Program-made: the position numbers and the translations under genes | DNA from: Fulvitalea axinellae | GTDB taxonomy: Bacteria; Bacteroidota; Bacteroidia; Cytophagales; Cyclobacteriaceae | Reading direction: 5' to 3' | Length of the DNA stretch: 64,000 nt | Assembly (NCBI RefSeq): GCF_036492835.1 | Contig: NZ_AP025315.1 | Location: forward strand, 248,001-312,000 | Notes under the pieces: model-generated | Databases searched by the model: none | Told to the model about the DNA's origin: nothing | The model's input: the letters and a program-made list of their open reading frames with translations, nothing else | Shown: positions 4,568-49,932 of the stretch, in pieces | Layout: the number at the start of each line of letters is the position of its first letter | Position numbering within the stretch: the stretch's first letter is position 1

Positions 4568-4609
4568 AGTCTGGTCTTAAGTATCAGGTATTTGGTCTTA
4601 GGTAAAAAA
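4568..4609. repeat. 42-bp conserved permease spacer repeat
   Basis: Second copy of the spacer, differing from the 2165-2206 copy by only a few bases. It also contains the likely translation initiation region of the gene to its left. Confidence 0.8.
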
Positions 4610-6967: not shown

Positions 6968-7009
6968 CGTTTGGTATTAAGTATTAGGTATTTGGTCTTA
7001 GGTAAAAAA
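6968..7009. repeat. 42-bp conserved permease spacer repeat
   Basis: Third visible copy of the spacer, here with the unit TTAAGTATTAGGTATTTGG. It lies between the intact permease and the IS-disrupted one. Confidence 0.8.
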
Positions 7010-8083: not shown

Positions 8084-8085
8084 AG
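8076..8085. repeat. Target-site duplication, left copy
   Basis: TATAGCATAG directly precedes the left terminal repeat and recurs exactly at 9349-9358 after the right one. Ten bases fits the ISAs1 family. Confidence 0.95.
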
Positions 8086-9348: not shown

Positions 9349-9358
9349 TATAGCATAG
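9349..9358. repeat. Target-site duplication, right copy
   Basis: TATAGCATAG, identical to 8076-8085, is the second copy of the IS target. Confidence 0.95.
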
Positions 9359-10616: not shown

Positions 10617-10671
10617 AACGTGGTCTTAAGTATTAGGTATATGGTCTTAGGTAAAAATCTGGGCGCTTTGG
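10617..10671. repeat. Variant permease spacer repeat (55 bp)
   Basis: It has the same GGTCTTAAGTATTAGGTA units as the other spacers, but the end that adjoins the next stop codon has a different sequence, so it is 13 bp longer. Confidence 0.7.
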
Positions 10672-13059: not shown

Positions 13060-13101
13060 AGGTTGGTATTAAGTATTAGGTATTTGGTCTTAGGTAAAAA
13101 A
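13060..13101. repeat. 42-bp conserved permease spacer repeat
   Basis: A further copy of the spacer, close to the 6968-7009 version. Confidence 0.8.
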
Positions 13102-15752: not shown

Positions 15753-16448
15753 CTAAAAAACCGTGCCTACGGGGGCGTTGGTGTTTTCGGCCACTATCTG
15801 TCCGTCGAAGAGGTTTACTACGCGGTGGGCGTAGCCCGCGTCGCGTTGCGAGTGGGTTACCATTACTATGGTGGTGCCTTCGCGGTTGAGTTCGGTGAGC
15901 AGGCCCATCACCTCGGCGCCGTTTTTCGAATCGAGATTACCTGTCGGTTCATCGGCGAAGATAAGCTTTGGCTTGGCCACCACTGCCCGGGCTATGGCCA
16001 CACGCTGTTGCTGTCCGCCACTGAGCTGTTGCGGAAAATGCTTGGCCCTGTGGCCGATGTTCATGCGCTCCAAAGCCTCGTTTACCAAGCGCTTACGCTC
16101 CGACTTCTTGATCTTGAGATAGACTAACGGTAATTCTACATTCTCAAATACGTTCAGCTCATCTATCAGGTTAAAACTCTGGAACACAAAGCCTATATTC
16201 CCTTTTCGCTGGGCGGTGCGCTCGTTTTCTTTCATCTTGGAAACATCGACTCCGTCAAAAGAGTAATGGCCGTCGGTAGGGCTGTCAAGCAATCCCAAAA
16301 TATTCAGCAAGGTGGATTTACCGCATCCCGACGGTCCCATAATGGCGACAAACTCGCTTTCTTTTACCTCGAAATTCACCTTGTAGAGCGCGCTTGTCTC
16401 CACTTCTTCGGTGCGAAATATTTTACTGAGGTTTTCTGTCTTGATCAT
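15753..16448 (-). CDS. ABC transporter ATP-binding protein, MacB/LolD type
   Basis: This 231-residue cytoplasmic ATPase has all motifs intact: Walker [10 protein letters not shown] (38-46), Q-loop Q90, signature LSGGQQQR (142-149), Walker B LIFADE (162-167) and H-loop H199. The length and [10 protein letters not shown] tail fit the LolD/MacB-ATPase family that powers FtsX-type permeases. It is the only ATPase in the window for at least six permeases, so it must serve several permeases if they are all active. It follows the membrane-fusion gene by 109 bp and precedes the permeases by 242 bp. Confidence 0.95.
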
Positions 16449-25150: not shown

Positions 25151-26368
25151 ATGGCAACACCGAAAAAAGTAGTTTTGGCTTTCAGTGGCGGATTAGACAC
25201 TTCTTTCTGCGTCAAGCATCTTCAGGAAAAAGGTTACGAAGTGCTTTCCGCTATCGTAAATACGGGCGGATTTGACGAGGCCGAGCTTAAAACCATTGAG
25301 GAAAAAGCCTACAAACTGGGCGTCAACCACCACGTTGCGCTTGATGAAACCCAGAACTTCTACGACAACTGCGTCAAATACCTGATTTTCGGTAATGTCC
25401 TCAAAAACAACACTTATCCTCTTTCGGTAAGCGCCGAGAGGGTTTTCCAGGCCAAAGCCATCGTAGACTACGCCAACTCGGTACAGGCCGACGCCATTGC
25501 GCACGGAAGTACTGGCGCCGGCAACGACCAGGTGCGTTTCGATTTGGTATTCCAGATTATGGCGCCAAACACGGAAATCATCACGCCTATCCGAGATATG
25601 CAGCTCTCGCGCCAAGCCGAGATCGACTACCTTAAGGAAAAAGGCGTGGAGCAGGATTGGTCAAAAGCCCAATACTCTATTAATAAAGGCCTCTGGGGAA
25701 CCAGCGTGGGCGGTGCCGAGACTTTGACCTCTCACCTTACGCTTCCGGAAGACGCCTATCCTTCGCCATTGAAAAAGGAAACGCCTGAATCTATCACCAT
25801 CGAATTTGAAAACGGTGAGCCTGTAGGCCTTAACGGAGAGAAATTCGCCTCTTCGGTGGACGTTATCCAACAGCTTGAAAAAATCGCCTCGGAATTCGCC
25901 GTAGGCCGCGACGTTCACGTGGGCGACACTATTATCGGTATCAAAGGCCGTGTAGGTTTCGAAGCTGCCGCGCCGCTGATTCTTGTGAAAGCCCATCATT
26001 TGCTTGAGAAGCACACGCTCTCGAAATGGCAACAACACCATAAACAAACCCTTTCCGACTGGTACGGAATGGCCCTTCACGAAGGCCAGTTCTTCGAGCC
26101 GCTTATGCGCGATATCGAAAACTTCCTGACCAGCACGCAAGCCACCGTAACGGGTACCGTGGAAGTGAAACTCCTGCCTTACCGCTTCGAAGTTGTGGGT
26201 ATCAAATCTGAATTTGACCTCATGAACTCGGAATTCGGCGACTACGGCGAGATGAACAACGCCTGGAGCGGAGAAGACGTGAAAGGCTTTACGAAGATTT
26301 TGGCCAATCCGATGAAAATCTGGATGGCTACACAGAAAAAGGCGAATCCCACCGTCACGGAAGCCTGA
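25151..26368 (+). CDS. argG: Argininosuccinate synthase
   Basis: This 405-residue cytoplasmic enzyme joins citrulline and aspartate with ATP to make argininosuccinate, the penultimate step of arginine synthesis. It has the N-type ATP pyrophosphatase P-loop SGGLDTS (12-18), the conserved AHGSTGAGNDQVRFD segment and the C-terminal synthase domain. The length is normal. It is first in a co-directional set with an ArgE-like deacetylase (74-bp gap) and argH. The rest of the pathway (argA/B/C/D/F) is not in the window. Confidence 0.97.
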   Translation: MATPKKVVLAFSGGLDTSFCVKHLQEKGYEVLSAIVNTGGFDEAELKTIEEKAYKLGVNHHVALDETQNFYDNCVKYLIFGNVLKNNTYPLSVSAERVFQAKAIVDYANSVQADAIAHGSTGAGNDQVRFDLVFQIMAPNTEIITPIRDMQLSRQAEIDYLKEKGVEQDWSKAQYSINKGLWGTSVGGAETLTSHLTLPEDAYPSPLKKETPESITIEFENGEPVGLNGEKFASSVDVIQQLEKIASEFAVGRDVHVGDTIIGIKGRVGFEAAAPLILVKAHHLLEKHTLSKWQQHHKQTLSDWYGMALHEGQFFEPLMRDIENFLTSTQATVTGTVEVKLLPYRFEVVGIKSEFDLMNSEFGDYGEMNNAWSGEDVKGFTKILANPMKIWMATQKKANPTVTEA

Positions 26369-26442
26369 TTCCTACCGCGCCCTGTCTCCTACCGAATGCT
26401 CTTGGAAAATGGAGCGGGGCGCTTTTCTCAACTCTTTCTGTC

Positions 26443-27525
26443 ATGGAAACCACTAGCCCAGATATCGTAGCCCTTCGGGACAAGGCTGTCGGCCTTTTGG
26501 AAAAATTGCTTGCCACGCCTTCCCTTTCAAGATCGGAAGACAAAACGGCGCCGATACTAAAGGAATTCCTGGAATCCGAAGGCTTCGAATACAAAACCAA
26601 AGGCAATAACGTGTGGGCCGAGAGCGAAAACCACCTTCCCGGCGCCCCGGTAATCCTTCTCAATTCGCATCACGATACGGTAAAACCGGCTACTGACTGG
26701 ACCAAGGAGCCATTCGCCGCCACTTACGAAGGCGAAAAGCTTTACGGACTCGGCTCCAACGACGCAGGCGCTTCGTTGGTCAGCTTGGCTACAGTATTCG
26801 CCACTTTGGCAAAAAGCGAAACCACTTTACCCTATAAACTTATATTCGCCAGTACGGCCGAGGAAGAAATCTCCGGACCGAACGGCGTAGCCTCGGTCCT
26901 GCCGGAACTCCCGACTCCCGATTTGGGAATAGTCGGAGAGCCTACCAAATGCCAGATGGCGGTAGCCGAAAAAGGCCTGATAGTCATTGACGCGACAGCC
27001 GAAGGCGTAGCCGGACACGCGGCGCGCGAAGAGGGCATAAACGCCATTTACAAGGCCATGACGGACATCGAATGGCTGGCGACATACACTTTCCCGAAAA
27101 TGTCCGAAACCCTCGGACCGGTTAAGGTAAGCGTTACTCAGATAGAAGCCGGATCACAGCATAACGTCGTGCCTGACCGTTGCTCCTTCGTGATTGACGT
27201 ACGCACCACGGACCGCTACACCAACGAGGAAATCGTAGAGATTATAGACCAAAACACAAGATCCGTCATTAAGCCGAGATCTTGCAGGCTCAACTCGTCA
27301 GGCCTACCGGCAGACCACCCCGCCGTCCTAAAAGCGGAGGCAATGGGATTGGAAAGATTCGGGTCGCCGACGCTTTCTGACCAAGCGCTAATGTCGTTCC
27401 CGACAGTAAAAATCGGGCCCGGCGACTCGGCCCGGTCACACACCGCCGACGAGTATATTTTAGTCAGCGAAATAGAGCAAGGAATCAGGACATACCTTGA
27501 ACTGCTCGACGGATTAAAATTGTGA
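26443..27525 (+). CDS. M20 metallopeptidase, acetyl/succinylornithine deacetylase (ArgE-like)
   Basis: This 360-residue M20-family hydrolase has the di-metal ligands in place: H and D in NSHHDTVKP, D in GSNDAGAS, the catalytic EE in STAEEEISG, E in GEPTKC and the late H in GDSARSHTADE. Its dimerisation domain (about 165-280) contains GVAGHAAREEGINAIY. Between argG and argH it most likely deacylates N-acetyl- or N-succinylornithine; Bacteroidota can use succinylated intermediates, and the substrate cannot be told from the sequence. Its 3' flank carries a repeat-rich spacer. Confidence 0.88.
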   Translation: METTSPDIVALRDKAVGLLEKLLATPSLSRSEDKTAPILKEFLESEGFEYKTKGNNVWAESENHLPGAPVILLNSHHDTVKPATDWTKEPFAATYEGEKLYGLGSNDAGASLVSLATVFATLAKSETTLPYKLIFASTAEEEISGPNGVASVLPELPTPDLGIVGEPTKCQMAVAEKGLIVIDATAEGVAGHAAREEGINAIYKAMTDIEWLATYTFPKMSETLGPVKVSVTQIEAGSQHNVVPDRCSFVIDVRTTDRYTNEEIVEIIDQNTRSVIKPRSCRLNSSGLPADHPAVLKAEAMGLERFGSPTLSDQALMSFPTVKIGPGDSARSHTADEYILVSEIEQGIRTYLELLDGLKL

Positions 27526-27529
27526 GGAA

Positions 27530-27676
27530 TTAAGTATTAGGAAAGTTTTTGGTCTTAGGTATTATGTATTAGGTACATATCCGTAGAATTTATCTTACTC
27601 CTAAGACTCTGCAAAGGAATTTTTATTTATAAAAAATCAACTACCTAATACTTAACACCAAATACCTAAGACCAAG
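27530..27676. repeat. Inverted pair of TTAGG-type repeat units
   Basis: The left arm (27530-27575) has TAAGTATTAGG, GGTCTTAGGTATT and TATTAGGTA. The right arm (27639-27676) has CTACCTAATACTTA and AATACCTAAGACCAAG, the complement. These are the units found in the permease spacers 12-25 kb away. Transcribed between the argE-like gene and argH, the pair could form a long hairpin. Confidence 0.75.
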
Positions 27677-27696
27677 TAAAAAAACACCCGACCCCA

Positions 27697-29031
27697 ATGA
27701 AACTCTGGAGCAAAGGATTTGATATAGATAAGCGGATTGAGACTTTCACCGTAGGCAACGACCGCAAACTTGACCACAAAATAGCCTGGTTTGACGTAGC
27801 CGGATCTCTGGCGCATATTACAATGCTGGAAAGCGTAGGCCTTCTTCCCGCCGAAGACCTCAAAGCGTTGAAAAGCGAAATGGGCAAGATCCTTTCGGAA
27901 ATCGAAAGCGGCGAGTTCAAAATCGGCGAAAGCTTCGAAGACGTGCATTCTTACGTGGAATACGTTCTGACCGAACGCGTTGGAGAAGCCGGTAAGAAAA
28001 TCCACTCGGGCCGTTCGCGTAACGACCAGGTTTTGGTTGATATTCACCTCTATCTGCGCCACGAGATTCAGGAAATCATGGAATCGGCCTCGGCGCTGAT
28101 CGACAAGCTCTCTTCGCTTAGCGAGAAGTTCAAAAACCATCTCCTGCCGGGTTATACGCACCTTCAGGTCGCTATGCCTTCATCGTTTGGCCTTTGGTTT
28201 GGCGCCTACGCCGAAAGCCTTGTCGACGATCTGTATCTGTTCGAAGCCGCTTACAAAGTAGCCGACCAGAATCCTTTGGGATCCGCCGCAGGTTACGGCT
28301 CCTCATTCCCGCTCAACCGTACCATGACCACCGAATTGCTCGGTTTTTCGGATATGAAATATAACGTTGTGGCCGCTCAGATGAGCCGTGGAAAGTCCGA
28401 AAGAGCGCTATCGATGGCGATGGCCACAATGGGCCAAACGCTCTCGAAAATGGCCATGGATGTGTGCTTGTATATGAGCCAAAACTTCGGTTTTATCAGC
28501 TTCCCCGACGAGTTGACTACCGGGTCCAGCATTATGCCTCACAAAAAGAATCCGGATGTTTTCGAACTGATTCGTGGCAAGTGCAACCAGCTTCAGGCGC
28601 TTCCTGTCGAGTTGGGTTATATTATCTCCAACCTTCCATCAGGCTACCACCGTGATTTGCAGTTGCTCAAAGAGACGCTTTTCCCCGGTATCGACCGCCT
28701 AAAAGATTGCCTCGATATCCTGACGTTTATGATCGACAAAGCGGTTATTACCGAAAACATTCTCGAAGACGAGAAATACAAATACGTATTCAGCGTGGAA
28801 GAGCTTAACAAGGTGGTTCTTGGAGGAATGCCTTTCCGCGAAGCGTATAAAAAAATCGGAAAAGACATTGCCGAAGGAAATTTCAAACCCGCTACCGAGG
28901 TTCGCCACACACACGAGGGTAGCGTAGGTAACCTTTGCACTGAGAATATCCTGAAAAAGAAAAGCAAGATCCTCGAAGAAATGGATTTCGCGAAAGCGGA
29001 TAAAGCTTTAAAGACTTTAACTCAAATCTAA
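27697..29031 (+). CDS. argH: Argininosuccinate lyase
   Basis: This 444-residue cytoplasmic homotetrameric enzyme of the fumarase/aspartase superfamily cleaves argininosuccinate to arginine and fumarate. The signature loop GSSIMPHKKNPD with the catalytic serine is present, as are SGRSRNDQV and the THLQVAMP segment. The length is slightly short of the roughly 460 residues typical, within the family range. It ends the argG - argE-like - argH cluster, and a weak hairpin with a T-rich tail follows. Confidence 0.97.
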   Translation: MKLWSKGFDIDKRIETFTVGNDRKLDHKIAWFDVAGSLAHITMLESVGLLPAEDLKALKSEMGKILSEIESGEFKIGESFEDVHSYVEYVLTERVGEAGKKIHSGRSRNDQVLVDIHLYLRHEIQEIMESASALIDKLSSLSEKFKNHLLPGYTHLQVAMPSSFGLWFGAYAESLVDDLYLFEAAYKVADQNPLGSAAGYGSSFPLNRTMTTELLGFSDMKYNVVAAQMSRGKSERALSMAMATMGQTLSKMAMDVCLYMSQNFGFISFPDELTTGSSIMPHKKNPDVFELIRGKCNQLQALPVELGYIISNLPSGYHRDLQLLKETLFPGIDRLKDCLDILTFMIDKAVITENILEDEKYKYVFSVEELNKVVLGGMPFREAYKKIGKDIAEGNFKPATEVRHTHEGSVGNLCTENILKKKSKILEEMDFAKADKALKTLTQI

Positions 29032-38723: not shown

Positions 38724-39662
38724 TTATTCTGAAAGTTTTTGGAGTAACTCTTTCAACTCACCTATTCTAGTTTCGATTTCTTCAGCTTTTGAGCGTTTCT
38801 CTTCAGCGGTTCCTTTTTTAATAACGATATCGATTTCTTTAGAATAACCGCCTAACCAAGTTGTGAAACGATCTTTTTTTGTAGTGGAACTCTTAGGTTT
38901 CGCCTCTTTAGGGGGCGTTACTTGAACTACTGGCTCCTCTTCCTTGGAACGTTCTTTTCTAACCGTTTCCAACCAAGAGCTAACGTTCACATCATTTTTG
39001 CCCAAAAACTCAATGTCACGTTTCAATAAATCACTCTCGCCGGAAAGCAGTACCCTCGCCTCATCGGCCGGCAACTTACGCACACCCGATGCGAAATGCC
39101 CGTCACGTTCTATCGTATTTTTTCCGACATGGAACTCTTCGGCAAGGCGCTGAGCGGTATTTCCAACCGAAACCCCATTTTGGGGTTTTGTCTTTTTACC
39201 TCCGTGCTCCTGCTTTTCATCAAGATATCGGAGTCCTCTCAGGTACGAGATCTGATTTTTCGAAAGGTTTCTTCTTCCAAACTGAATATTAAGCATCTCG
39301 CGCTTAACGTCAGCCATATCTGCAAGGTCGTTCCTGACTATGACCTTGTAATTAAGGTTTTTTCCAGCGTGGCGCTGGATTATCGAATACCTATTATGCC
39401 CATCGACAATGTAATAAGTCTTATCGTCCTTTTTCCAAAGCATCAACGGCTCCTTGACGATACCGTCTTTCAGGATATTTTCCTCAAGCTTTCTCAGCTC
39501 CGGCTCGGCCAAAGGCGGAATATACGTCCTGAGTTCCTCGTGTACCCTGATGCTTTGCTTTATCTTCTCCTGCTCGGCCAAGGCCTGCTCGGTGAGCTTC
39601 TGAGTAACCATAGGTTTGCGGGCACTACCCACAGTTAACGGAGCGATTTTTTTCTTAGCCAT
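38724..39662 (-). CDS. parB: ParB-family partition protein (plasmid type)
   Basis: It is 312 residues from the ATG at 39662 (MAKKKIAPL), chosen because that ATG overlaps the parA stop by eight bases (ATGGCTAA), a typical parAB coupling. The N-terminal ParB/Srx domain has YIVDGHNRYSII (about 85-105), and a central HTH region follows (about 135-190, TAQRLAEEFHVGKNTIERD). A charged linker and a C-terminal coiled-coil (about 265-312) complete it. ParB binds parS, loads DNA and stimulates ParA. A candidate parS palindrome (39170-39188) lies inside this gene. Confidence 0.9.
   Translation of the reverse strand: MAKKKIAPLTVGSARKPMVTQKLTEQALAEQEKIKQSIRVHEELRTYIPPLAEPELRKLEENILKDGIVKEPLMLWKKDDKTYYIVDGHNRYSIIQRHAGKNLNYKVIVRNDLADMADVKREMLNIQFGRRNLSKNQISYLRGLRYLDEKQEHGGKKTKPQNGVSVGNTAQRLAEEFHVGKNTIERDGHFASGVRKLPADEARVLLSGESDLLKRDIEFLGKNDVNVSSWLETVRKERSKEEEPVVQVTPPKEAKPKSSTTKKDRFTTWLGGYSKEIDIVIKKGTAEEKRSKAEEIETRIGELKELLQKLSE
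39170..39188. promoter_or_regulatory. Candidate parS site 1 (inside parB)
   Basis: AAACCCCATTTTGGGGTTT has 7-bp inverted arms and a 5-bp spacer. The same 19 bases recur at 49904-49922 and, on the other strand, at 46178-46196, and nowhere else that I can see in the window. Confidence 0.55.
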
Positions 39663-40596
39663 TCGACACTTCGTTTGCAAGTTCCAAATAATCTTCCGCT
39701 CCCGATGATTTATGATCATAAGCGAAGATATCCATTCCCGCTTGAGCGGCCTCTTTCAGCGCAACATTCAGACGAATAGCTCTGTCGTATACGCCCAGAT
39801 AACCCAAATCCTGACGGATTGCGTCAATATTTTGTTTATGCAACGACAAGCGACCGTCGTACATCGTAAACAGAATCCCCTCGATGCGCAGGTTCTGATT
39901 CACCTCGTCGCGGACACTGTCAATTGTACTGATCAAGGCGTTGAGCCCTTTTATAGAAAAAGCCTCAGGCTGAATAGTAATCATTACCCTATCAGACGAT
40001 ATAAGAGCGTTGGTCATCAAGGAGCCCAAAGAAGGGCCACAATCGATCAGGATATAATCGTAATTCTCACGGATCGGCTCCACGAACTTCTTCAGAAGGA
40101 AATTTGAGGACAAATCATTAAACTCTTTTTCTCCCGACGAAAGGTCAATATCAGACGGCACAAGGTCCGGTCCTTCTTCTGTTTTCAGAATCGGCCAGTC
40201 GGTCAAGCCTTTCAGGGCCGTGTATATGTTCTCATCAACATCGTGATAACCGAAATGAGCCGTAAGGTTCGCCTGAGCGTCAAGATCTATTACGAGTACG
40301 CTAAACCCCTTTCTTGTAAGTGCCGAGCCAAGATTCGCAACTGTAGTCGTTTTTCCTACGCCGCCTTTTTGGTTTACGACACTGATTACTTTACAGTCGC
40401 TAGGCGCCGACACATAACCGTATTTCAGCATTACGGGCCGGATTTTTTCCAAATGCTGATCATTCAATGACCTTTCTCCGTTAAGGACCTTGGTTAGCAA
40501 ACCTTGCGAAAGGCCACTTTCCAATTCAAGGCTCTTAAGAGAAAGCGCCTTGTTTTTTCTCAAAAAGGCCTTAACCTTTTCATTCGTTATATTCAT
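39655..40596 (-). CDS. parA: ParA-family partition ATPase with N-terminal HTH
   Basis: This 313-residue protein has an N-terminal helix-turn-helix (about 16-58, LKSLELESGLSQGLLTKVLNG, split) before the deviant Walker ATPase. The P-loop is KGGVGKTT (77-84), Walker A' is VLVIDLDAQAN, and Walker B is YILIDCGPS. The N-terminal DNA-binding domain marks type Ia ParA, which usually represses its own operon in addition to moving plasmids. It is followed by the overlapping parB and preceded by a consensus promoter whose -33 region sits in a palindrome. Confidence 0.95.
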   Translation of the reverse strand: MNITNEKVKAFLRKNKALSLKSLELESGLSQGLLTKVLNGERSLNDQHLEKIRPVMLKYGYVSAPSDCKVISVVNQKGGVGKTTTVANLGSALTRKGFSVLVIDLDAQANLTAHFGYHDVDENIYTALKGLTDWPILKTEEGPDLVPSDIDLSSGEKEFNDLSSNFLLKKFVEPIRENYDYILIDCGPSLGSLMTNALISSDRVMITIQPEAFSIKGLNALISTIDSVRDEVNQNLRIEGILFTMYDGRLSLHKQNIDAIRQDLGYLGVYDRAIRLNVALKEAAQAGMDIFAYDHKSSGAEDYLELANEVSNG

Positions 40597-40661
40597 CGGG
40601 ATTGGAGTTACGGTAAAAAAGTTTCATTTCGGTATTTCGGGCTTTTCGCCTTACCGTTCTC

Positions 40662-40693
40662 CAAATGTATCGGTTTGAATTTTAGTTGACAAA
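40662..40693 (-). promoter_or_regulatory. Bacteroidota-type promoter of parAB
   Basis: On the minus strand, TTTG (40693-40690), a 20-bp spacer and TACATTTG (40669-40662) match the Bacteroidota consensus exactly. It lies 66 bp before the parA ATG. Confidence 0.75.
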
Positions 40694-40703
40694 TTTTTTT
40701 GTC
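40688..40703. promoter_or_regulatory. Palindrome over the parAB -33 element, possible operator
   Basis: GACAAA-TTTT-TTTGTC has 6-bp arms and covers the -33 box. A half-site (GACAAA at about 40717-40722) lies nearby. It is a candidate site for autorepression by ParA. Confidence 0.45.
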
Positions 40704-40883
40704 TTATTTTTAATATTGACAAACAAATAAGTCTTTTGGTTTTAGTTAATGAAGAATCAAAAAATCAAACAACAGCAAATCAGTCCTTTTTAAATATTGA
40801 TGTTTTATTTTGTTTTAAATGTTTTAAATGTTTTCAGTCCTCGTAACTCCTTGTTAACCAAGGGAATATGCGTGTTGAAGTTA

Positions 40884-41311
40884 ACTAAAATGCCGTTTAC
40901 GGCAATTCTTATGCCGTTAAACAAAACCAAAATGCCGTGTAAAACTAATCTTTATGCCGTTAAACAAAACCAAAATGCCGTGTAAAACTAATCTTTATGC
41001 CGTAAGTGAAACCAAAATGCCGTATTAATGCTGTCAAACCTTTTTTTAATAAAACTAAAATGCCGTAAAAACGATATTGTTATTGTTTTAATAAGTGAGA
41101 ATATAAATTTATAAATCCAATTATCACAAAAGGAAACAAAAATACCGTTGTTTCGGTTTCATTTGACTCTAATATCATTAAAATGCCGTAGAAATAGGCC
41201 AGAATACCTTTGTATTGAAACTTAAATGCCGTATTTTTTGAACGTGATAGTTTATCCTACGGCAAAAAGGATGCTTTTAGATGTAGGTCGCCGGTATTAC
41301 GGCATTTTGGT
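40884..41311. promoter_or_regulatory. Plasmid-type replication origin with iterons
   Basis: Ten direct copies of ATGCCGT begin at 40890, 40911, 40932, 40954, 40975, 40997, 41017, 41060, 41183 and 41226. The first seven are spaced 20-22 bp, about two helix turns. The core is ACCAAAATGCCGT (exact at 40926, 40969 and 41011), alternating with a TTTATGCCGT form, so a 43-bp unit is repeated at 40922-41003. An inverted exact copy lies at 41299-41311, just before rep, and a variant follows rep at 42733-42745. AT-rich stretches (41067-41180) could be the unwinding region. Confidence 0.88.
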
Positions 41312-41348
41312 TTAGTTTCGTTTTACGTTATTTAAGTTAACTTTTGAA

Positions 41349-42725
41349 ATGGGCGATTCGCTGTTCAAGAATAACGATTACAAAATTGTTAAAAGCAATG
41401 ACCTTGTAAACTCGCGTAGCGGTTTTACGCTGACCCAGCATAGGATTATCCTTTTGATGAGCTCCAGGATTACAAACGAGCATAAGGACTTCCATGAGAT
41501 GAGGATACCTATACGGGAGATTCTGGGCAAGAAGCCGGGCGAGAACATTGGTACAAGCGCATATAAACAGGTTAGGGAAGCCGCCAGAGGGCTTACCAGA
41601 AGCTCTATAGACATTGAGCGGGGAAATAAGTGGAAATCATTCTCTTTCATCTCTGTGGCCGAAGGAGAGCGTGGAGTGCCTTATATCACCGTGAAGTTCT
41701 CGACAGAGATGAGGCCTTTTTTCCTGAGCCTTCGAGATAACTACACCAGCTATCTGTTACGCAACGTTTTCGACTTCAGAAGCGCGCACTCACTCCGTAT
41801 TTATGAATTGATGAAGCAGTATTATCCGCGGATAAAAAAGAGGAAAATAGATGTTGCTCGTCTTAGGGAGTTGTTATATATCCAAGGTAAATACAAGAAC
41901 CACAGTATGTTCCGAAAGAAAGTGATCGACGTGGCGCAACGTGAGATCAATGAGAATTCGGATTTGTATATCGAATATGAGGAGCATAAACAGGGACGCC
42001 GGGTAGCCGAAATCACTTTCCACATAAGGAAGAATGAGGCCAACGCTGAGTTCATTCCGGTTAACGGCAACCAAGATGACGTAAAAATGTTATCGCCTGA
42101 CCCAATTTCCGTTTCCGAACCCGAACCGAAGACTATTTCTATCGATTTTGATGTGGTTGAGGAGATCATTCCCGAATCTGAGGAAAAACTGCCCGCATGG
42201 TGTAACAAGCAGGCCCTTAACAGGCTGTTTGAGACGTTTGGCGAGGATTACGTGATGTATTGCGTAAAGACTATTGGAGACCGCGGAGAGATATCGAACC
42301 CTATGGGGTATTTGATCAAGGCGTTGAAAGACGGCTATTTCGAAGGCGGTTTCAAGATGAAGAAGGAAAAGGCTTTACAAAAGGCCAGAAGAAGGCAGGA
42401 AGCCGACACAAAGCGTCAGAGAGCCAAGCTAAAAGAGAAAATCAGTCAGGAGTTCGACAAATATAATAGCGAGATCAAGGCGAGATACTATAACAATGCT
42501 TCTGATGAGGATAAGGCGGAGTATTGCTTTATGATGGAGATGGCCGAGACCGAATTTGAGCGTAAACAAGGCCGTACGATTGAGCGAGGTCGTCCTGACG
42601 ATATAGCCAAGAGGCATTTCGCTACTTGGTTGATAGAAAAGCAAGGAACGGAAGAAGAGCGCGTCAAACTGTCGGTACAAGGTTACGCCGAGCTTGTGCA
42701 TAAGTTTGACTGGAACGACGACTGA
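41349..42725 (+). CDS. Rep_3-family replication initiator protein
   Basis: This 458-residue protein has the tandem winged-helix layout of plasmid RepB/Rep_3 initiators. WH1 is about 8-130 (VKSNDLVNSRSGFTLTQHRI, split; RNVFDFRSAHSLRIYELMKQY follows), and WH2 is about 135-240 (IDVARLRELLYIQGKY, KKVIDVAQREINENSDLYIEYEE, split). It continues with a linker and a long, charged helical C-terminal extension (about 330-458). It should bind the upstream iterons, melt the origin and limit copy number. TACCTTTG (41205-41212) is a possible -7 element between iterons, which would fit autoregulation. Confidence 0.92.
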   Translation: MGDSLFKNNDYKIVKSNDLVNSRSGFTLTQHRIILLMSSRITNEHKDFHEMRIPIREILGKKPGENIGTSAYKQVREAARGLTRSSIDIERGNKWKSFSFISVAEGERGVPYITVKFSTEMRPFFLSLRDNYTSYLLRNVFDFRSAHSLRIYELMKQYYPRIKKRKIDVARLRELLYIQGKYKNHSMFRKKVIDVAQREINENSDLYIEYEEHKQGRRVAEITFHIRKNEANAEFIPVNGNQDDVKMLSPDPISVSEPEPKTISIDFDVVEEIIPESEEKLPAWCNKQALNRLFETFGEDYVMYCVKTIGDRGEISNPMGYLIKALKDGYFEGGFKMKKEKALQKARRRQEADTKRQRAKLKEKISQEFDKYNSEIKARYYNNASDEDKAEYCFMMEMAETEFERKQGRTIERGRPDDIAKRHFATWLIEKQGTEEERVKLSVQGYAELVHKFDWNDD

Positions 42726-42732
42726 TCTTTTT

Positions 42733-42745
42733 ACGGCATTTTAGT
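42733..42745 (-). repeat. Iteron-like copy downstream of rep
   Basis: ACTAAAATGCCGT on the minus strand is identical to the variant iterons at 40884-40896 and 41054-41066. It begins 8 bp after the rep stop. Confidence 0.7.
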
Positions 42746-42782
42746 TCGGAATAAACCGAACCACTCCCCCATTGACTTTTAT

Positions 42783-42806
42783 TCGCCCGGAGAATCCGCT
42801 CCGGGC
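42783..42806. terminator. Hairpin between rep and amidohydrolase gene
   Basis: CGCCCGGA-GAATCCGC-TCCGGGCG is a perfect 8-bp stem without a following T-run. It may be an RNA structure or a weak terminator. Confidence 0.4.
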
Positions 42807-42831
42807 GTCAAACCCTAATACAATCAAACCG

Positions 42832-45800
42832 ATGAAAAAACTGCTCTTATGGCCCCTAGCGCTATCGCTGGCGCTATCGGGCGTAGCCCAAGACAAAGAA
42901 AAGGGCTGGGATGTGGAGAACCCGCCCGGCGAATCCAAAGAAATCAGAATAAAGACCGACGAGGGCACGTGGATGAACCTCGACGTAAGCCCCGACGGCA
43001 AAAAGGTTGTGTTTGATATGCTCGGCGACATCTACGTCATTTCGGTTGCAGGCGGAAAGGCCCGCTTGCTCAAAGGCGGAATGTCAATGGACGTACAGCC
43101 AAGGTTTAGCCCTGACGGACGGCATATTAGTTTCACTTCCGATGCCGGTGGCGGTGATAACGTCTGGATTATGAACTCCGACGGCTCCGACGCAAGGCAA
43201 GTTACCAAAGAGAATTTCAGGTTGCTCAACAACGCCGAATGGATGCCAGACGGCCAATATCTTGTTGCCAGAAAGCACTTTACGAGCGGACGTTCGTTGG
43301 GCGCGGGCGAGCTGTGGCTTTATCATATTAAGGGCGGATCGGGCGTACAGCTCACCAAACGCAAAAACGACCAGCAGGACGCCGGAGAGCCTGCCGTGTC
43401 GCCAGACGGCAAATACGTGTACTTCAGCGAGGATATGAGCGGAGGATCCACCTTTGAGTATAATAAGGATCCCAACGGCCGTATCTACGTAATCCGCAGG
43501 GTGAATACTGAGACGGGCAAAGTCCGTAATATTATTTCGGGTCCCGGCGGAGCCGTTCGTCCGCAGATATCGCCCGACGGACGCAAAATAGCCTTTGTGA
43601 GACGAGTTCGCACCAAATCGGTGTTGTTTGTCCATGACCTGAAAACAGGCGAAGAATACCCCGTTTACGACGGTCTGAGCAAAGACCAGCAGGAAGCCTG
43701 GGCCATCTTCGGCGTTTATACCTGTTTCGACTGGATGCCGGACAACCAAAACGTGATTATTTGGTCAAAAGGGAAAATCGTTAAGATCGATACCGAAACA
43801 GGTAAAGCAACTCCGATTCCGTTCAATGTGGATGTCCGGAAAAAGGTGATGTCCACCGTAAAGAACCAAAATGCCGTATTGGCCGAGAAGTTCGACTCGA
43901 AGATGATTCGCCAGGCAAAGACTTCTCCTGACGGAAAATGGCTCGTATTCAACGCTGTGGGCCATATCTGGAAGAAAAAATTGCCAAACGGCAAACCGGT
44001 TCGCTTGACCGATGATACGGAATTCGAGTTTGAACCGAACTTTTCTGCCGATGGCAAATGGCTTGTTTACGTTTCTTGGGACGATGAAAAGCTAGGAGAG
44101 ATCAGAAAACTGGATTTGACGGATAAAAATTCAAAACCTGCAAAGATCACTTCCGAAAAAGGCTTTTACAGAACCCCAACCTTCTCCCCCGACGGCAAAA
44201 AGGTTGCATATCGAAAAGACAGGGGCAACGATCATATGGGTTTTAATTTCACCAAAAATCCGGGCCTCTACTATATCGATGCCAATGGCGGAGAATCGTT
44301 CCAGATATGCGAGGAGGGCGAATATCCCGCCTTTGACAATTCAGGTGAGCGAATTTACTATATGACAGGCGGTTACCTTTTCGGCTCTTTGAAGAAAGGT
44401 TTTCACAGTATCGGTCTGGACGGAAAAGACAAGCGAACCCACTTCACATCAAAGTACGCGAACCAATTTGCCGTAAGTCCCGACGGCAAAAAGGTGGCTT
44501 TCTCCGAACTCCATAAAGTTTACCTGGCTCCTTTCCCAAAAACGGGCAAAGGAACTGATCTGTCGCACGGCGGTGGGAAATTCCCCGTGGTACAGGTTGC
44601 CGAAGATGCCGGAACCAGCCTCCATTGGTCCGCTAAGGGTGAAAATCTGCATTGGACGCTTGGAGGAGAGTATTTTACGGTAAATGCCAAAGATAGGCTG
44701 GAAGCCTTCGGAACTGAAAAACTCAAGGAATTTAAGCCCGAAAAGAAGGGCCAAAATGTTGGGTTAACTCTCAAGGCGGATATTCCCGAAGGGAAAATGG
44801 CTTTCACAAATGCCCGGATCATCACTATGGACGGCGACAAAGTGATCGAAAACGGCATTTTGGTGGTAGATGGAAACAAGATCGTTGCGGTAGGTGAAGC
44901 TTCGGCAACCAAAATGCCGTCGGATGCCAAAGTGATCGATTGTTCGGGAAAAACGATAATGCCCGGAATCGTTGACTCCCACGCTCACCTCGGAACTTTC
45001 AGGTATGGAATGAGCCCGCAACAGCAATGGAGTTATTTCGCGAATTTGGCCTACGGTGTTACGACAACCCATGATCCGTCGTCAAATTCGGAAATGGTTT
45101 TCAGCCAATCCGAGATGGTCAAAACCGGAACAATGGTGGGCCCGAGGATTTTCTCTACAGGAACAATCCTCTACGGAGCCGACGGCGACTTCAAGGCCGT
45201 AATCAACAACCTTGACGACGCCCGTTCGGCCGTTTATAGGACAAAAGCCTTGGGAGCGTTTTCCGTAAAGAGCTACAACCAACCGCGCCGGGATCAGCGC
45301 CAACAGGTTTTGCAGGCTTCACGCGAATTGGGAATCAACGTTTACCCGGAAGGTGGCTCAACATTTTTCGCCAACATTTCGCAAGTGATCGACGGACATA
45401 CGGGTATTGAGCATAACCTCCCGATCGCCCCTCTCTTCGATGACGTTATTCAGCTTTGGAGTGAAGTCGGAACGGCTTATACGCCGACTTTGATCGTGAA
45501 TTACGGTGGAAATTCGGGTGAGTATTATTGGTACCAGCACACGGACGTTTGGGGAAAAGAGCGTCTACTGAAGTTTATGCCGAGAGGAATGGTCGATTCC
45601 CGCTCGCGCAGAGTGACGCTTGTACCTGAAGAGGAATATGAGAATGGCCATATTCTTACCTCAAAGTCCTGCAAAGCACTGTCGGATGCGGGCGTTCGGG
45701 TAAACCTCGGGGCGCACGGACAGCTTCAGGGCCTTGGGGCGCATTGGGAGCTTTGGATGCTTGAACAAGGCGGAATGACTCCGCTGGAGGCGATCAGGTC

Positions 45801-46107
45801 TGCTACGCTCAACGGTGCGGTGTATCTTGGAATGGATAGCGAGATCGGGTCTTTGGAAGTAGGGAAATTGGCGGATTTGATTATCATGGACAAGAACCCT
45901 CTCGATGATATCCGTAATAGCGAATCCGTAAGATACACCATGGTAAACGGCAGGCTGTACGATTGCGAGACAATGAACGAAATCGGAAACTACGACAAAA
46001 AGAGAGGAAGCTTCTATTGGGAAGGCCAAAAATATAATCGAGGTTTTGAATGGCATTCGGAGACCAACAGCTTTATGCCGAGCAATTGCGGTTGTGGTAG
46101 ACATTAG
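42832..46107 (+). CDS. Secreted amidohydrolase with N-terminal TolB/PD40 beta-propeller
   Basis: It is 1091 residues from the ATG at 42832, chosen because it gives a clean signal peptide (MKKLLLWPLALSLALSGVAQ). The N-terminal two-thirds is a propeller with repeated SPDGK-type motifs (for example VSPDGKKVVF and FSPDGRHISF). The C-terminal part is an amidohydrolase with metal motif SHAHLG and a GKLADLIIMDKNPL end. It probably acts in the periplasm on peptides or amides; the substrate is unknown. Three exact copies of the iteron core lie inside the gene (43865, 44852 inverted, 44908). Confidence 0.92.
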   Translation: MKKLLLWPLALSLALSGVAQDKEKGWDVENPPGESKEIRIKTDEGTWMNLDVSPDGKKVVFDMLGDIYVISVAGGKARLLKGGMSMDVQPRFSPDGRHISFTSDAGGGDNVWIMNSDGSDARQVTKENFRLLNNAEWMPDGQYLVARKHFTSGRSLGAGELWLYHIKGGSGVQLTKRKNDQQDAGEPAVSPDGKYVYFSEDMSGGSTFEYNKDPNGRIYVIRRVNTETGKVRNIISGPGGAVRPQISPDGRKIAFVRRVRTKSVLFVHDLKTGEEYPVYDGLSKDQQEAWAIFGVYTCFDWMPDNQNVIIWSKGKIVKIDTETGKATPIPFNVDVRKKVMSTVKNQNAVLAEKFDSKMIRQAKTSPDGKWLVFNAVGHIWKKKLPNGKPVRLTDDTEFEFEPNFSADGKWLVYVSWDDEKLGEIRKLDLTDKNSKPAKITSEKGFYRTPTFSPDGKKVAYRKDRGNDHMGFNFTKNPGLYYIDANGGESFQICEEGEYPAFDNSGERIYYMTGGYLFGSLKKGFHSIGLDGKDKRTHFTSKYANQFAVSPDGKKVAFSELHKVYLAPFPKTGKGTDLSHGGGKFPVVQVAEDAGTSLHWSAKGENLHWTLGGEYFTVNAKDRLEAFGTEKLKEFKPEKKGQNVGLTLKADIPEGKMAFTNARIITMDGDKVIENGILVVDGNKIVAVGEASATKMPSDAKVIDCSGKTIMPGIVDSHAHLGTFRYGMSPQQQWSYFANLAYGVTTTHDPSSNSEMVFSQSEMVKTGTMVGPRIFSTGTILYGADGDFKAVINNLDDARSAVYRTKALGAFSVKSYNQPRRDQRQQVLQASRELGINVYPEGGSTFFANISQVIDGHTGIEHNLPIAPLFDDVIQLWSEVGTAYTPTLIVNYGGNSGEYYWYQHTDVWGKERLLKFMPRGMVDSRSRRVTLVPEEEYENGHILTSKSCKALSDAGVRVNLGAHGQLQGLGAHWELWMLEQGGMTPLEAIRSATLNGAVYLGMDSEIGSLEVGKLADLIIMDKNPLDDIRNSESVRYTMVNGRLYDCETMNEIGNYDKKRGSFYWEGQKYNRGFEWHSETNSFMPSNCGCGRH
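43865..43877 (+). repeat. Iteron-core copy inside CDS
   Basis: ACCAAAATGCCGT is identical to the origin iterons. The match extends to 17 bases (AACCAAAATGCCGTATT) with the copy at 41010. Confidence 0.5.
44852..44864 (-). repeat. Iteron-core copy inside CDS, inverted
   Basis: ACGGCATTTTGGT is the exact complement of the iteron core. It encodes part of ENGILVV, a common amidohydrolase sequence, so coincidence is possible. Confidence 0.4.
44908..44920 (+). repeat. Iteron-core copy inside CDS
   Basis: ACCAAAATGCCGT is an exact core match in a different reading frame (ATKMPSD) from the 43865 copy (NQNAV). Confidence 0.45.
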
Positions 46108-46140
46108 GTTTACGAACTTTTATTTTTTAGGATAAGAAAA

Positions 46141-46170
46141 ACGCCCGGGTGTAGCATCCGGGCGTTTTTT
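46141..46170 (+). terminator. Rho-independent terminator after amidohydrolase gene
   Basis: ACGCCCGG-GTGTAGCAT-CCGGGCGT is followed by TTTTT. Confidence 0.85.
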
Positions 46171-46177
46171 GTTATCA

Positions 46178-46196
46178 AAACCCCAAAATGGGGTTT
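46178..46196. promoter_or_regulatory. Candidate parS site 2
   Basis: AAACCCCAAAATGGGGTTT is the exact reverse complement of the sites at 39170 and 49904. Flanking bases extend the stem to CAAAACCCC/GGGGTTTTG. It sits just downstream of a separate, complete terminator, so it is not needed for termination. Confidence 0.55.
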
Positions 46197-46665
46197 TGAG
46201 ATCGTTTAGGTCGTTAGTTTCTCAATAAAGCGTTTTGTAGGAAGTTTTTGACGTTTTGCTGAAGGAATCATCATGTTTGTTGATGTTTTTTTATCGTTAA
46301 TCTAAAATTGATTTTTTTGCACTTTGAATATGCTGTTGTGAAAATGTGGGGAGTATTAAGGGAAATGTTACCATTTGCACTAGAATGAGTTGCGTTTAAA
46401 CTAGGATTGAGCCGTAGATCTAAAGTAATACAAACGGTGAATTTCCATAGTATAGATTTGCCCAGCCTTCTTTTAAGACATGCGACATCAGATTTTCAAA
46501 TTGTTCATCTCTTTAGAATTATTACTTTAAAAATTTATTCTTAGTAGAGTGGGGGATTTACTTGTCCTAAGTATCATGCTAATGTTGGTTAAAGATATTT
46601 TGAGGTAAAAAAATGTGAGTTAACTCATTAATCGAATTGGAAAAACTTGAAAACTGAGATTGATA

Positions 46666-49056
46666 ATGACTAGAAGAATTTTTCGAAATCTGTGTACGCT
46701 GACAGGCTTGTTATTTTGCCTGGTGGTTCCGCCTCCTGTTTTTGGACAAGGAGGGTTGAAGATTAGCGGAACGATCAAGGACAAGGCTAACGGAGAAGAC
46801 CTAGTGGGGGCGACAGTGGCGATCAAAGAAATGCCGGGAAAGGGTGCCGTCTCAAACGCTTACGGTTTTTATTCCCTGAGCCTTCCGGCGGGCAAGTATA
46901 CGCTTATATACGGCTTTGTGGGGTATGATCCGATAATGAGGGAAATTGACGGGTCTGGCGAACAGAAAATCAACATTGAGCTAGCGGAAAATGCTCAAGA
47001 GTTGGACGTGATAGTAGTGAGCGCCGAGGCTGAAGACGCCAATGTGACTGCCAATGAAATGAGTGTCGTGAAACTCAGTCCCAAAGAAATTGAGGATGTT
47101 CCGGTCCTTTTCGGGGAGCGCGATATCATGAAAACCATCCAGCTTATGCCTGGTGTGCAGTCTGCGGGCGAGGGTGGTAGCGGTTTCTATGTCCGGGGCG
47201 GAGACGCCGGCCAAAACTTACTTTTGCTTGACGAGGCGCCCGTTTACAACGCTTCGCATATGATGGGCTTTTTCTCGGTGTTCAATTCCGACGCCATTAG
47301 AAGCGTCGATCTTTACAAAGCTGGGATTCCGCCCGCTTTTGGTGGACGGGTTTCTTCCGTGATGGATATTAAGATGAAAGAAGGCGACTCCAAAAACTTC
47401 GGTGTTTCTGGTGGAATAGGCCTTATAGCGTCCAGACTCACCGCTGAGGGACCTATCGTGAAGGATAAGGGATCGTTCATCATTTCAGGTCGTAGGACTT
47501 ACGCCGACATGTTTCTGGCATTTTCGTCTGACGAGGACCTGAATAATTCGTCGCTTTATTTTTATGATTTGAATATGAAGGCGAATTATAGCCTGAACGA
47601 CAATAACAGGCTGTTCGTCTCGGGGTATTTCGGAAAAGACAAAATGGGAACCGATGATTTCGGGATCGATTGGGGCAACGCTACGGGTACGGTTCGCTGG
47701 AACCATATCCTGAACAGTAGCTGGTTTTCCAACACGTCTCTCATTTACAGCAAGTATCGTTTTGGTTTCGAAATTTCTGACAACGGAGCTGCCAAACGAG
47801 GTCTTGATTCAAATATCGAGAACTGGAACCTTAAGCAACAATTCGAATATTATAGGAGCGAAAATATCTCGTACAAATTCGGTTTGAACGCTATTAGGCA
47901 CACCGTTTCGCCAGGCGAAATGTCCGCTGACGATGAGGCTGCCGTAAGCGACTTCTCCGTTCCGAAGAGACACGCTTTCGAATACGCCGCTTACGCAAGC
48001 GCCGACCATAAAATTTCTCCGAAATTCCGTGCGGAATATGGCCTTCGTTTTTCTGGATTTCTGGCCTTGGGCCCTGGAGATTTCCACACCTACAATGATA
48101 AGGGCGACATAATATCGACTGAAACTTACGACAAAAACGAAGTTGCTGAGGACTATTACGGCCTTGAGCCACGTTTGAATTTGACGTATTTGCTGGATGG
48201 GCGAAGCTCTTTCAAGTTTTCTTACAACAGGGTTTACCAATACCTGCACTTGCTTTCGGCTTCATCTTCCGGTACACCGATGGATTATTGGATGCCTAGC
48301 AGTAATAATATTGAACCAGAAATTGGAGATCAATGGGCCGTGGGGTATTTCCGGAATTTTAACGAAAACCAATACGAGTTCTCCGCCGAAGTGTATTATA
48401 AAGACATCCAGAATGTTCTTGATTACAAAGTCGGAGCAGATGTTATTCTTAATGAAAACGTAGAGGCGGATTTGCTTTACGGCGACGGGCGTGCATACGG
48501 CCTGGAACTTCACCTTAAGAAAAAGACAGGAAAACTTACCGGTTGGCTTTCTTATACGCTCTCGCGTTCCGAGCGCAAGTTTGACGAACTTAACAATAAT
48601 GATTGGTTTCCCGCCAAACAGGACCGAACTCATGACATTTCCATTACGGCCGTTTACAAGCTAAGCGAAAGGGTCAAACTGTCGGGTAACTGGGTTTTCT
48701 ATACAGGCAACGCGGTGACTTTCCCGAGCGGAAAATATCAGGTAGACGGAAAATGGGTGAACTTGTACACTGAGCGTAACGGATACCGAATGCCGGATTA
48801 CCACCGTTTGGATTTGGGCTTGACTTTGGAAAACAAAAAGTACAAATACACGCTGGATAGGGAAACGGGAAAGAAAGTGAAAGTGAAGAAGAAAGTGGAG
48901 TCTGGTTGGAACTTCTCGCTTTACAACGCTTATGCGCGCGAAAATGCGTATACAATCACTTTCCGCGAAAACGAGGATGATCGTAACCAAACCGAAGCTG
49001 TGCGTTTGGCGCTGTTCAGCATTATCCCTTCTGTTTCGTATTACTTTAAATTCTGA
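46666..49056 (+). CDS. TonB-dependent outer-membrane receptor (carboxypeptidase-regulatory-like N-terminus)
   Basis: It is 796 residues from the ATG at 46666; a TTG two codons earlier is an alternative. It has a signal peptide (about 1-25, VVPPPVFGQ), a CarboxypepD_reg-like domain (about 30-115, ISGTIKDKANGEDLVGATV, split), a plug domain (about 130-235, GFYVRGGDAGQNLLLLDEAPV, split) and a 22-strand-type barrel ending VSYYFKF. It imports an unknown ligand across the outer membrane with TonB energy. It is followed 5 bp later by a DUF4249 lipoprotein, its usual partner in Bacteroidota. Confidence 0.95.
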   Translation: MTRRIFRNLCTLTGLLFCLVVPPPVFGQGGLKISGTIKDKANGEDLVGATVAIKEMPGKGAVSNAYGFYSLSLPAGKYTLIYGFVGYDPIMREIDGSGEQKINIELAENAQELDVIVVSAEAEDANVTANEMSVVKLSPKEIEDVPVLFGERDIMKTIQLMPGVQSAGEGGSGFYVRGGDAGQNLLLLDEAPVYNASHMMGFFSVFNSDAIRSVDLYKAGIPPAFGGRVSSVMDIKMKEGDSKNFGVSGGIGLIASRLTAEGPIVKDKGSFIISGRRTYADMFLAFSSDEDLNNSSLYFYDLNMKANYSLNDNNRLFVSGYFGKDKMGTDDFGIDWGNATGTVRWNHILNSSWFSNTSLIYSKYRFGFEISDNGAAKRGLDSNIENWNLKQQFEYYRSENISYKFGLNAIRHTVSPGEMSADDEAAVSDFSVPKRHAFEYAAYASADHKISPKFRAEYGLRFSGFLALGPGDFHTYNDKGDIISTETYDKNEVAEDYYGLEPRLNLTYLLDGRSSFKFSYNRVYQYLHLLSASSSGTPMDYWMPSSNNIEPEIGDQWAVGYFRNFNENQYEFSAEVYYKDIQNVLDYKVGADVILNENVEADLLYGDGRAYGLELHLKKKTGKLTGWLSYTLSRSERKFDELNNNDWFPAKQDRTHDISITAVYKLSERVKLSGNWVFYTGNAVTFPSGKYQVDGKWVNLYTERNGYRMPDYHRLDLGLTLENKKYKYTLDRETGKKVKVKKKVESGWNFSLYNAYARENAYTITFRENEDDRNQTEAVRLALFSIIPSVSYYFKF

Positions 49057-49061
49057 TTGAG

Positions 49062-49874
49062 ATGATTAGTGTTAAAAGATATATACTGGGCCTAATATCG
49101 ATTTTGGCTCTGGCATCATGCGAAAAGGTTATCGATGTGGAGCTCGATTCTTCGGATCCGAGAGTTGTGATTGAAGGAGTGGTGACCGATATCGAGAACG
49201 GGAGCTACGTTACTGTGAAAAAAACAGTGGATTTTGAGAATGTCGGCAAACCTGAACTAATCAAAAATGCCAAGGTAACACTTAGCTCGGGTGGACAGAC
49301 TTGGACCTTTGAAAGTGATCAGGACGGAGTATACAGACACGATGGGTTTACTGGGCAAATAGGCTCGAAATACACGTTGAAAGTGGAAGAAGGAGGAGTC
49401 ACGCACACGGCGTCGGCCACTATGTTACAAAGAATTCCGATAGAAAAAATCACTATGGAATTTGACGAAGACAGCAACCGTAGGGGGGACGACGACGACA
49501 ATTGGAAAGTCAAGGTGAAATATTTCGATCCGGCTGGGCCAATCAATTATTACAAATTCGCTGTATGGGTCGACGGAGAACTGGTGGAAGACCGAATCAT
49601 GATCCGAAGCGGTAAGTATAGCGACGGAATAAATACGGAATACTCTTTTTGGGAAGATTTGGCTGAAGGGCAAAAACTCCGAGTACACCTTTACCAAATC
49701 GAAGAGAAAACTTACGAATATTTCGAGTCGATTTCAGACATTTACGGAGGCGGTAACCCCTTGGCACCGGGTAATCCGGACGGACAGTTCGATACTGACG
49801 CTCTTGGATATTTCGCAACTTATCCAGTATCGGAAAAGAGCGTAACGGTTACCGATACGGAAAACAGGGAGTAA
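49062..49874 (+). CDS. DUF4249 lipoprotein
   Basis: This 270-residue protein has a lipobox (LALASC, C19) and the hallmark start EKVIDVELDSSDPRVVIEG (split) of DUF4249. The rest is beta-rich (VVTDIENGSYVTVKKT, SGGQTWTFESDQDG). It is translated with the upstream TonB-dependent receptor and is probably an outer-membrane surface partner in ligand capture. Its biochemical role is unknown in the family. A strong terminator-like palindrome follows. Confidence 0.92.
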   Translation: MISVKRYILGLISILALASCEKVIDVELDSSDPRVVIEGVVTDIENGSYVTVKKTVDFENVGKPELIKNAKVTLSSGGQTWTFESDQDGVYRHDGFTGQIGSKYTLKVEEGGVTHTASATMLQRIPIEKITMEFDEDSNRRGDDDDNWKVKVKYFDPAGPINYYKFAVWVDGELVEDRIMIRSGKYSDGINTEYSFWEDLAEGQKLRVHLYQIEEKTYEYFESISDIYGGGNPLAPGNPDGQFDTDALGYFATYPVSEKSVTVTDTENRE

Positions 49875-49894
49875 TACGATTTTCTGGAAATATA

Positions 49895-49932
49895 AAAAAG
49901 CCGAAACCCCATTTTGGGGTTTCGGCTTTTTT
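49895..49932 (+). terminator. Perfect hairpin terminator (bidirectional)
   Basis: AAAAAAGCCGAAACCCC pairs fully with GGGGTTTCGGCTTTTTT around a 5-base loop, between convergent genes. Its core is the 19-mer proposed as parS. Confidence 0.85.
49904..49922. promoter_or_regulatory. Candidate parS site 3
   Basis: AAACCCCATTTTGGGGTTT is identical, including the loop, to 39170-39188. The match to that site extends three further bases (CCG) on the left, although this copy also serves as a terminator core. Confidence 0.45.

Follow-up and report, generated by a model that had tools for sequence, protein, structure and literature searches.

The 64,000-base stretch of Fulvitalea axinellae DNA analyzed here (the window; positions 248,001 to 312,000 of contig NZ_AP025315.1) holds the partition and replication genes of a 554,072-base replicon, C2, together with a repeated 19-bp palindrome, AAACCCCATTTTGGGGTTT, that we propose as the parS (centromere) site of this replicon. 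The assembly consists of 15 contigs (C1 to C15, C1 being the chromosome) and 7,394,227 bases; the published genome was reported as 15 replicons and 7,397,925 bp (PMC10645730). The parB gene is found on the minus strand at 38724–39719 and encodes 331 amino acids as listed, with a fold match to ParB, Noc, and KorB. The true start is probably the ATG of residue 20 (39662), as judged from the MAKK consensus start of the family and the overlap with parA. The parA gene (39655–40596, minus strand) encodes a Walker-type ATPase (PF13614, 4.8e-53; CbiA, 8.9e-25), and the N-terminus of this protein gives a weak match to HTH_3 (18.8 bits, under the cut-off of 23). Both genes face the gene for a Rep_3 replication initiator (41349–42725, plus strand; PF01051, 6.7e-28; PF21205, 5.1e-17) across a stretch that contains AAAATGCCGT repeats. 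These repeats occupy 40875–41237, ahead of the Rep_3 gene, with a spacing of 42–43 bp in the first array, and inverted copies are located just before (41297–41312) and just after (42731–42746) the gene. They look like initiator iterons.

The palindrome is composed of two 8-bp arms and a three-base centre, TTT (8+3+8). Three exact copies were found in the window, at 39170–39188 (plus strand), 46178–46196 (minus strand), and 49904–49922 (plus strand), whereas matches to the 19-mer with three or fewer mismatches averaged 0.08, and never exceeded 1, in 100 dinucleotide shuffles of the window. The three copies had been pointed out in a first-pass annotation of the sequence, which also stated that pairs of copies share 21–22 bases when the flanks are included. 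The flanks, read from the printed context, agree with this for two pairs: the copies at 39170 and 49904 have 22 bases in common (CCG and the 19-mer) and those at 39170 and 46178 have 21 (the 19-mer and TG), while the third pair shares 19 only. The predicted parS copy 1 is located within the coding sequence of parB, again as had been described, where its perfect arms are in frame and encode residues 178–184 (KPQNGVS). The predicted copy 2 is intergenic, follows the ORF (open reading frame) at 42772–46107, and, as judged by eye, comes immediately behind another hairpin that is distinct from it and has a T-run. The first-pass annotation likewise put one copy after a separate terminator, and it did not set apart the predicted copy 3, which is intergenic, lies between convergent ORFs, and forms the core of a terminator-like hairpin of 18 pairs with a T-run (49894–49932). 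The hairpin is possibly a bidirectional terminator as well, and copy 3 may therefore do two jobs. Matches in the scan for terminator-like sites are weak evidence, since 19 were found against 14.9 (standard deviation 4.0) in shuffles and the copy within parB was also among the sites listed. Copies 2 and 3 are separated from the start of parB by 6.5 and 10.2 kb, and the neighboring ORFs do not resemble partition genes.

A count of the 19-mer on all replicons had been suggested as a check on the candidate site. In the 7.39 Mb of the genome there are 3 exact copies, and all of them are at rep/parAB of C2 within 10.8 kb, in keeping with the earlier statement that every copy is less than 11 kb from ParA/ParB; an equal frequency at gene ends throughout the genome, which would have refuted the candidate site, was not observed. 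At three or fewer mismatches there are two places off C2, one on C1 and one on C8, no more than expected from a reversed control pattern, which gave 5 forward and 5 reverse matches. The canonical 16-bp parS of the type known from Bacillus subtilis (TGTTNCACGTGAAACA; PMC7022226) was found on C1 only, as two exact copies and one copy with a single mismatch near base 4,500, and C2 has no site of this type.

The gene for the Walker ParA adjoins parB, the encoded ParB has an N-terminal ParB/Srx fold and a helix-turn-helix (HTH) DNA-binding domain, and a palindromic site is repeated near parAB and nowhere else. The locus is accordingly filed with the ParABS systems that have an HTH-type ParB, for which binding of ParB to the site, use of cytidine triphosphate (CTP), and segregation are predicted from sequence. 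Residues D106, G107, H108, and R110 of ParB are invariant across 19 homologues and are located where ParB proteins carry their nucleotide-binding motif. The N-domain of a pNOB8-like ParB (PDB 5k5a and 5k5d), a protein of an archaeal plasmid, is 13 percent identical to the window ParB. Copy 1 of the palindrome is held in the linker ahead of the HTH (residues 172–187; 39159–39206, minus strand), which has no helix in the AlphaFold2 model and a predicted local distance difference test score of less than 50 at residues 175–177 and 182–185. Residues 198–206, VGKNTIERD (39102–39128, minus strand), were assigned to the turn and the first part of the recognition helix from covariation and the same model. 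The positions that covary within this segment are K200 (+2), N201 (+3), E204 (+6), and R205 (+7).

When the genome was searched with this ParB, relatives came to light on every contig from C2 to C14, 13 in all. The smallest contig, C15 (10,000 bases), gave no match to the window ParB. The rRNA operons have been reported to be on the smallest plasmid (PMC10645730), and a search of our assembly for small-subunit rRNA found none, although this part of C15 may be truncated or masked. In all 13, the part of parB that encodes the linker ahead of the HTH contains a 19-bp palindrome whose 8-bp arms have one mismatch at most, and in 8 of them it is perfect, so that the comparison with related replicons proposed earlier returned a separate palindrome within each parB. 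The left arms include AAACCCCA (C2), AAGTCTCA (C3), AAAGGACA (C4), AGTGAACA (C5), ATGGGTCA (C7), GAACCTCA (C8), AGTGGTCA (C13), and AAGTATCA (C14). A further copy at two or fewer arm mismatches is present on 10 of the 13 contigs, either as a second palindrome inside parB (C3, C5, C7, C9, and C13) or outside this gene (two on C2, one on C3, four on C4, one on C6, two on C8, and one on C14). This count leaves out a place with two mismatches 18 kb off on C10 and places with three mismatches on C11 and C12. The copies within C4 and within C8 keep their arms and differ in the central triplet, and therefore the TTT loop is no defining part of the site; its conservation, to which the first-pass annotation had drawn attention, applies to the three window copies and not to the relatives. 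Exact copies were counted genome-wide for four motifs (those of C2, C3, C5, and C8) and were confined to the replicon of origin in each case, with three places for the C3 motif, two for the C5 motif, and three for the C8 motif, which has in addition one place with a single mismatch on C3.

The wider family was assembled from a ParB search of 98 genomes, 18 of which (this genome included) gave a match and supplied the stretches around it, from the loci of a profile survey of 395 genomes of the phylum, and from 80 loci retained out of at least 579 relatives, with titles that are mostly of Cytophagales (Runella, Spirosoma, Arcicella, Emticicia, Flectobacillus, and Siphonobacter). Removal of repeated ORFs reduced the set from 157 to 137 distinct ORFs, and 133 were kept for the position count after 4 lacking a GRRN landmark were dropped. 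A generic scan for repeated near-palindromes was swamped by gene repeats and simple sequence, and the class pattern NNNNNN[C/A]A-NNN-T[G/T]NNNNNN was used instead. On the landmark scale, the bin of codons +20 to +39 contains 58 palindromes with no more than one mismatch, 23 of them perfect. The next two bins contain 20 with 10 perfect (+40 to +59) and 9 with 3 perfect (+60 to +79), and every other 20-codon bin has 0 to 7, with 2 perfect ones altogether. Class sites in the linker are in frame 0 in 70 of 78 cases, many with CAA AAT (Gln-Asn, QN) at the centre. A perfect linker palindrome was observed in 27 of the 133 ORFs, compared with a mean of 0.86 and a maximum of 4 in 100 synonymous-codon shuffles; with one mismatch allowed, the corresponding values are 63 observed, mean 13.1, and maximum 22. 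One family member, with an in-frame AGTTACCAAAATGGTAACT, is on a 3.7-kb contig titled Faecalibacterium sp. An122, which is assigned to another phylum. Phage records searched by tblastn yielded 11 weak matches.

The arms covary with the recognition helix. In 54 pairs of ParB and palindrome (58 less 4 at 80 percent identity or higher), Arg at +7 occurs with C at arm position 7 in 44 of 44 and Asn at +7 with A in 9 of 9; the class pattern allows only CA or AA at the inner ends, and thus this comparison separates only C from A. The resulting code was usable in 124 ORFs, 13 of the 137 having been dropped (11 of them among the 74 ORFs with no in-gene site), and a fitting site was found in 93 of the 124, 56 in parB and 37 in the flanks. 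The ORFs without an in-gene site served as a held-out set, for which 1.5 kb upstream and 0.5 kb downstream were scanned. The flanking palindromes fit the code in 34 of 63 ORFs (39 have any palindrome), whereas 5,000 permutations gave a mean of 12.1 and a maximum of 22. Among the perfect palindromes of this set, 26 of the 27 paired with Arg have C and all 13 paired with Asn have A. Of the 34 fitting sites, 22 are just after parB and 12 are before it, mostly by about 1 kb and presumably ahead of parA.

A second held-out set was made of 24 new PLSDB plasmids (14 from Persicobacter sp. JZB09, 4 from Emticicia oligotrophica, 4 cyanobacterial, and 2 others), one of which was dropped. The code fits 16 of the 23 usable plasmids against a permuted mean of 8.5 and a maximum of 15. 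An in-gene fitting palindrome is present on three of the four cyanobacterial plasmids: those of Allocoleopsis (VSRATIERD with ATCCCTCA) and Oscillatoria (ASPKTIRRD with AGTGGTCA) obey the rule, as does that of Gloeothece (VGEKTIRRD), in whose gene AGTGGTCA occurs four times at intervals of 36 bp. The Calothrix plasmid has no site. No ParA is annotated alongside the cyanobacterial ParB relatives in stretches of about 5.5 kb, the PLSDB gene tables being incomplete, and one of these relatives comes after a DnaB helicase. On the E. oligotrophica plasmids, the parB next to a gene for a ParA family or AAA family ATPase is entered as hypothetical protein (three of four) or HTH domain-containing protein (one of four). 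In a tree of 87 rows built without the linker and the HTH, the rows agree with the code in 86 of 87 cases for +7 and in 83 of 85 for +3. On this tree, arm position 7 and residue +7 each require 10 changes; the independent pairs, 3 on well-supported branches and 9 on all branches, are concordant in nearly every pairing.

Sites are rarely shared within a genome. Every code-fitting site was taken by rule (rows that had none, 44 of 137 and 8 of 24, were dropped), which gave 109 sites in 50 genomes. Arm positions 3–7 are common to 2 of 226 site pairs within genomes and to 257 of 5660 between genomes, the latter being inflated by orthologous plasmids of sister species, and shuffling of the genome labels gave an average of 10.0 within-genome sharing pairs (p = 0.002). 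With hand-picked flank sites the counts were 2 of 215 within and 184 of 3701 between genomes (p = 0.003). This rarity is what the avoidance of incompatibility predicts.

Several known partition systems resemble the one in the window. The Streptomyces coelicolor plasmid SCP1 is described as having three identical inverted repeats round each of parAB1 and parAB2, with an internal parS in both parB1 and parB2, and two private, non-overlapping specificities matched by differences in the recognition helices (PMC13245405). SCP1 differs in belonging to another phylum, in its 13-bp and 19-bp sites, and in that binding was measured by chromatin immunoprecipitation sequencing and biolayer interferometry; the available part of that report mentions neither a many-replicon code nor a recurrent in-frame linker position. 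In Thermus thermophilus, the megaplasmid parSm is within parB and binding of ParBm was reported as replicon-specific by electrophoretic mobility shift assay, but the site is 14 bp and two replicons only are involved (PMC4409726). The parS-359 site of B. subtilis is inside parB, like copy 1, but is chromosomal (PMC4442127), and the type canonical for that species is 16 bp long. The Burkholderiales Bsr systems are also related to one another, with related palindromic centromeres and a narrow cognate specificity explained by replicon incompatibility (PMC5450999). The Bsr sites are 16-bp palindromes with a central CG, a form that the window site, 8+3+8 with TTT and inner ends of the CA/TG or AA/TT class, does not have. 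For ParB and Noc, the half-site was reported to be set by a few residues of the DNA-binding domain (Caulobacter ParB 173, 179, 184, and 201; PMC7383237), compared with +2, +3, +6, and +7 here. In a hand alignment, +2 corresponds to Caulobacter 173 and +7 to 178, a residue described as contacting parS (PMC7383237).

We consider it very probable, on comparative sequence evidence, that the palindrome is the parS of the ParABS system of C2 itself, as the first-pass annotation had suggested. The confinement of all three copies to rep/par, the sister sites, the covariation with the recognition helix, and the presence of the canonical parS on the chromosome argue for this reading. A recurring transcription terminator stem would account for the hairpin and T residues around the 49904 copy and for the position of the 46178 copy near a gene end. 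It would not account for a copy inside the coding sequence of parB, for the lack of any further exact copy in 7.39 Mb, or for arms that vary by replicon and track the recognition helix of ParB, and we regard it as extremely unlikely. An operator at which ParB, or ParA through its N-terminal HTH, represses parAB or neighboring genes with no role in segregation is also very unlikely. KorB, a related protein, carries the title of transcriptional repressor, ParA has its weak HTH_3 match, and one site is within the operon; however, the two distant copies are beside ORFs that are not partition-like, the palindromes track ParB, and the avoidance of common sites within genomes fits partition incompatibility. 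Autoregulation by way of these sites may be an added role. The probability that the palindrome is due to chance, or to a coding constraint by which the recurrent QN linker peptide favors it, is close to negligible. CAA AAT does recur at the centre, and synonymous shuffles of the window parB produced a perfect palindrome in 247 of 20,000, but the arms, and hence the flanking residues, vary between replicons, identical or near-identical copies occur outside parB, extragenic sites fit the same code, and the number of perfect linker palindromes in the family is far above the shuffle maximum.

Several observations weigh against the identification as parS. No fitting site was found in 31 of the 124 ORFs with a usable code or in 7 of the 23 usable PLSDB plasmids; three of the ORFs without a site (G036 C1, G012 C1, and G015 C2, whose contigs measure 1.0 to 6.5 Mb) may not encode partition proteins. 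Some parBs of genomes G010 and G049 have no in-gene site, and JZB09 p11 breaks the rule, with Lys at +7 and A at arm position 7. The tree has 1 discordant row of 87 at +7 and 2 of 85 at +3, and the supported independent pairs, 3 for +7 and 4 for +3, are too few for significance. The family is also patchy, since the profile (E 1e-10) was found in 5 of 395 genomes of the phylum, this one included.

With the palindrome as parS, a ParB dimer would read one arm with each monomer through the helix that starts near residue 200. Within the arm, the C:G pair at position 7 would be read by R205, positions 5 and 6 by residue 201, and positions 3 to 5 by residues 200 and 204. ParB would load at the three sites, close as a CTP clamp, and slide over the adjoining DNA, and ParA would separate the ParB-DNA complexes before division. 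One of the copies is carried in frame in the parB linker, immediately ahead of the segment predicted to read it, and site and reader would then be inherited together. With private spellings, none of the 13 partition systems in a cell would read the sites of another.

Two other regions of the window are of note. At 2207–15510 there is a row of long minus-strand ORFs, most with the C-terminal SWQSWRAA.REPVEAL.YE and with a transposase-like ORF (8294–9328) between them; by eye, they look like FtsX/MacB-type permeases beside an ATP-binding cassette (ABC) ATPase (15753–16448). The ORFs at 25151–29031 read, by eye, like argininosuccinate synthase and lyase, and their presence on a 554-kb replicon suggests a chromid.

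The occurrence of parS inside parB is already known from B. subtilis, Thermus, and Streptomyces SCP1. What is new is the recurrent in-frame position beside the reading helix, the residue-to-base code, and the many private sites per cell; a search of open-access titles and abstracts, which does not cover other literature, found no account of the sites or the code of this ParB family. We think there is an even chance of a broader principle, in which centromere and reader form one inheritable unit, with an in-frame parS, often in tandem copies, in a flexible loop by the recognition helix. Specificity and site could then change jointly, and a compact code would permit many mutually blind centromeres per cell and passage between Bacteroidota and cyanobacterial plasmids. 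This would bear on the long-standing questions of how the centromeres of a dozen low-copy replicons are kept apart and how a new specificity originates when protein and site must change together. One genome supplies 13 related ParBs with their own palindromes, and the rule is simple enough for swaps of two or three residues. The code would also allow parS to be annotated in plasmids of Cytophagales, on which the ParBs of this family are sometimes left without a name.

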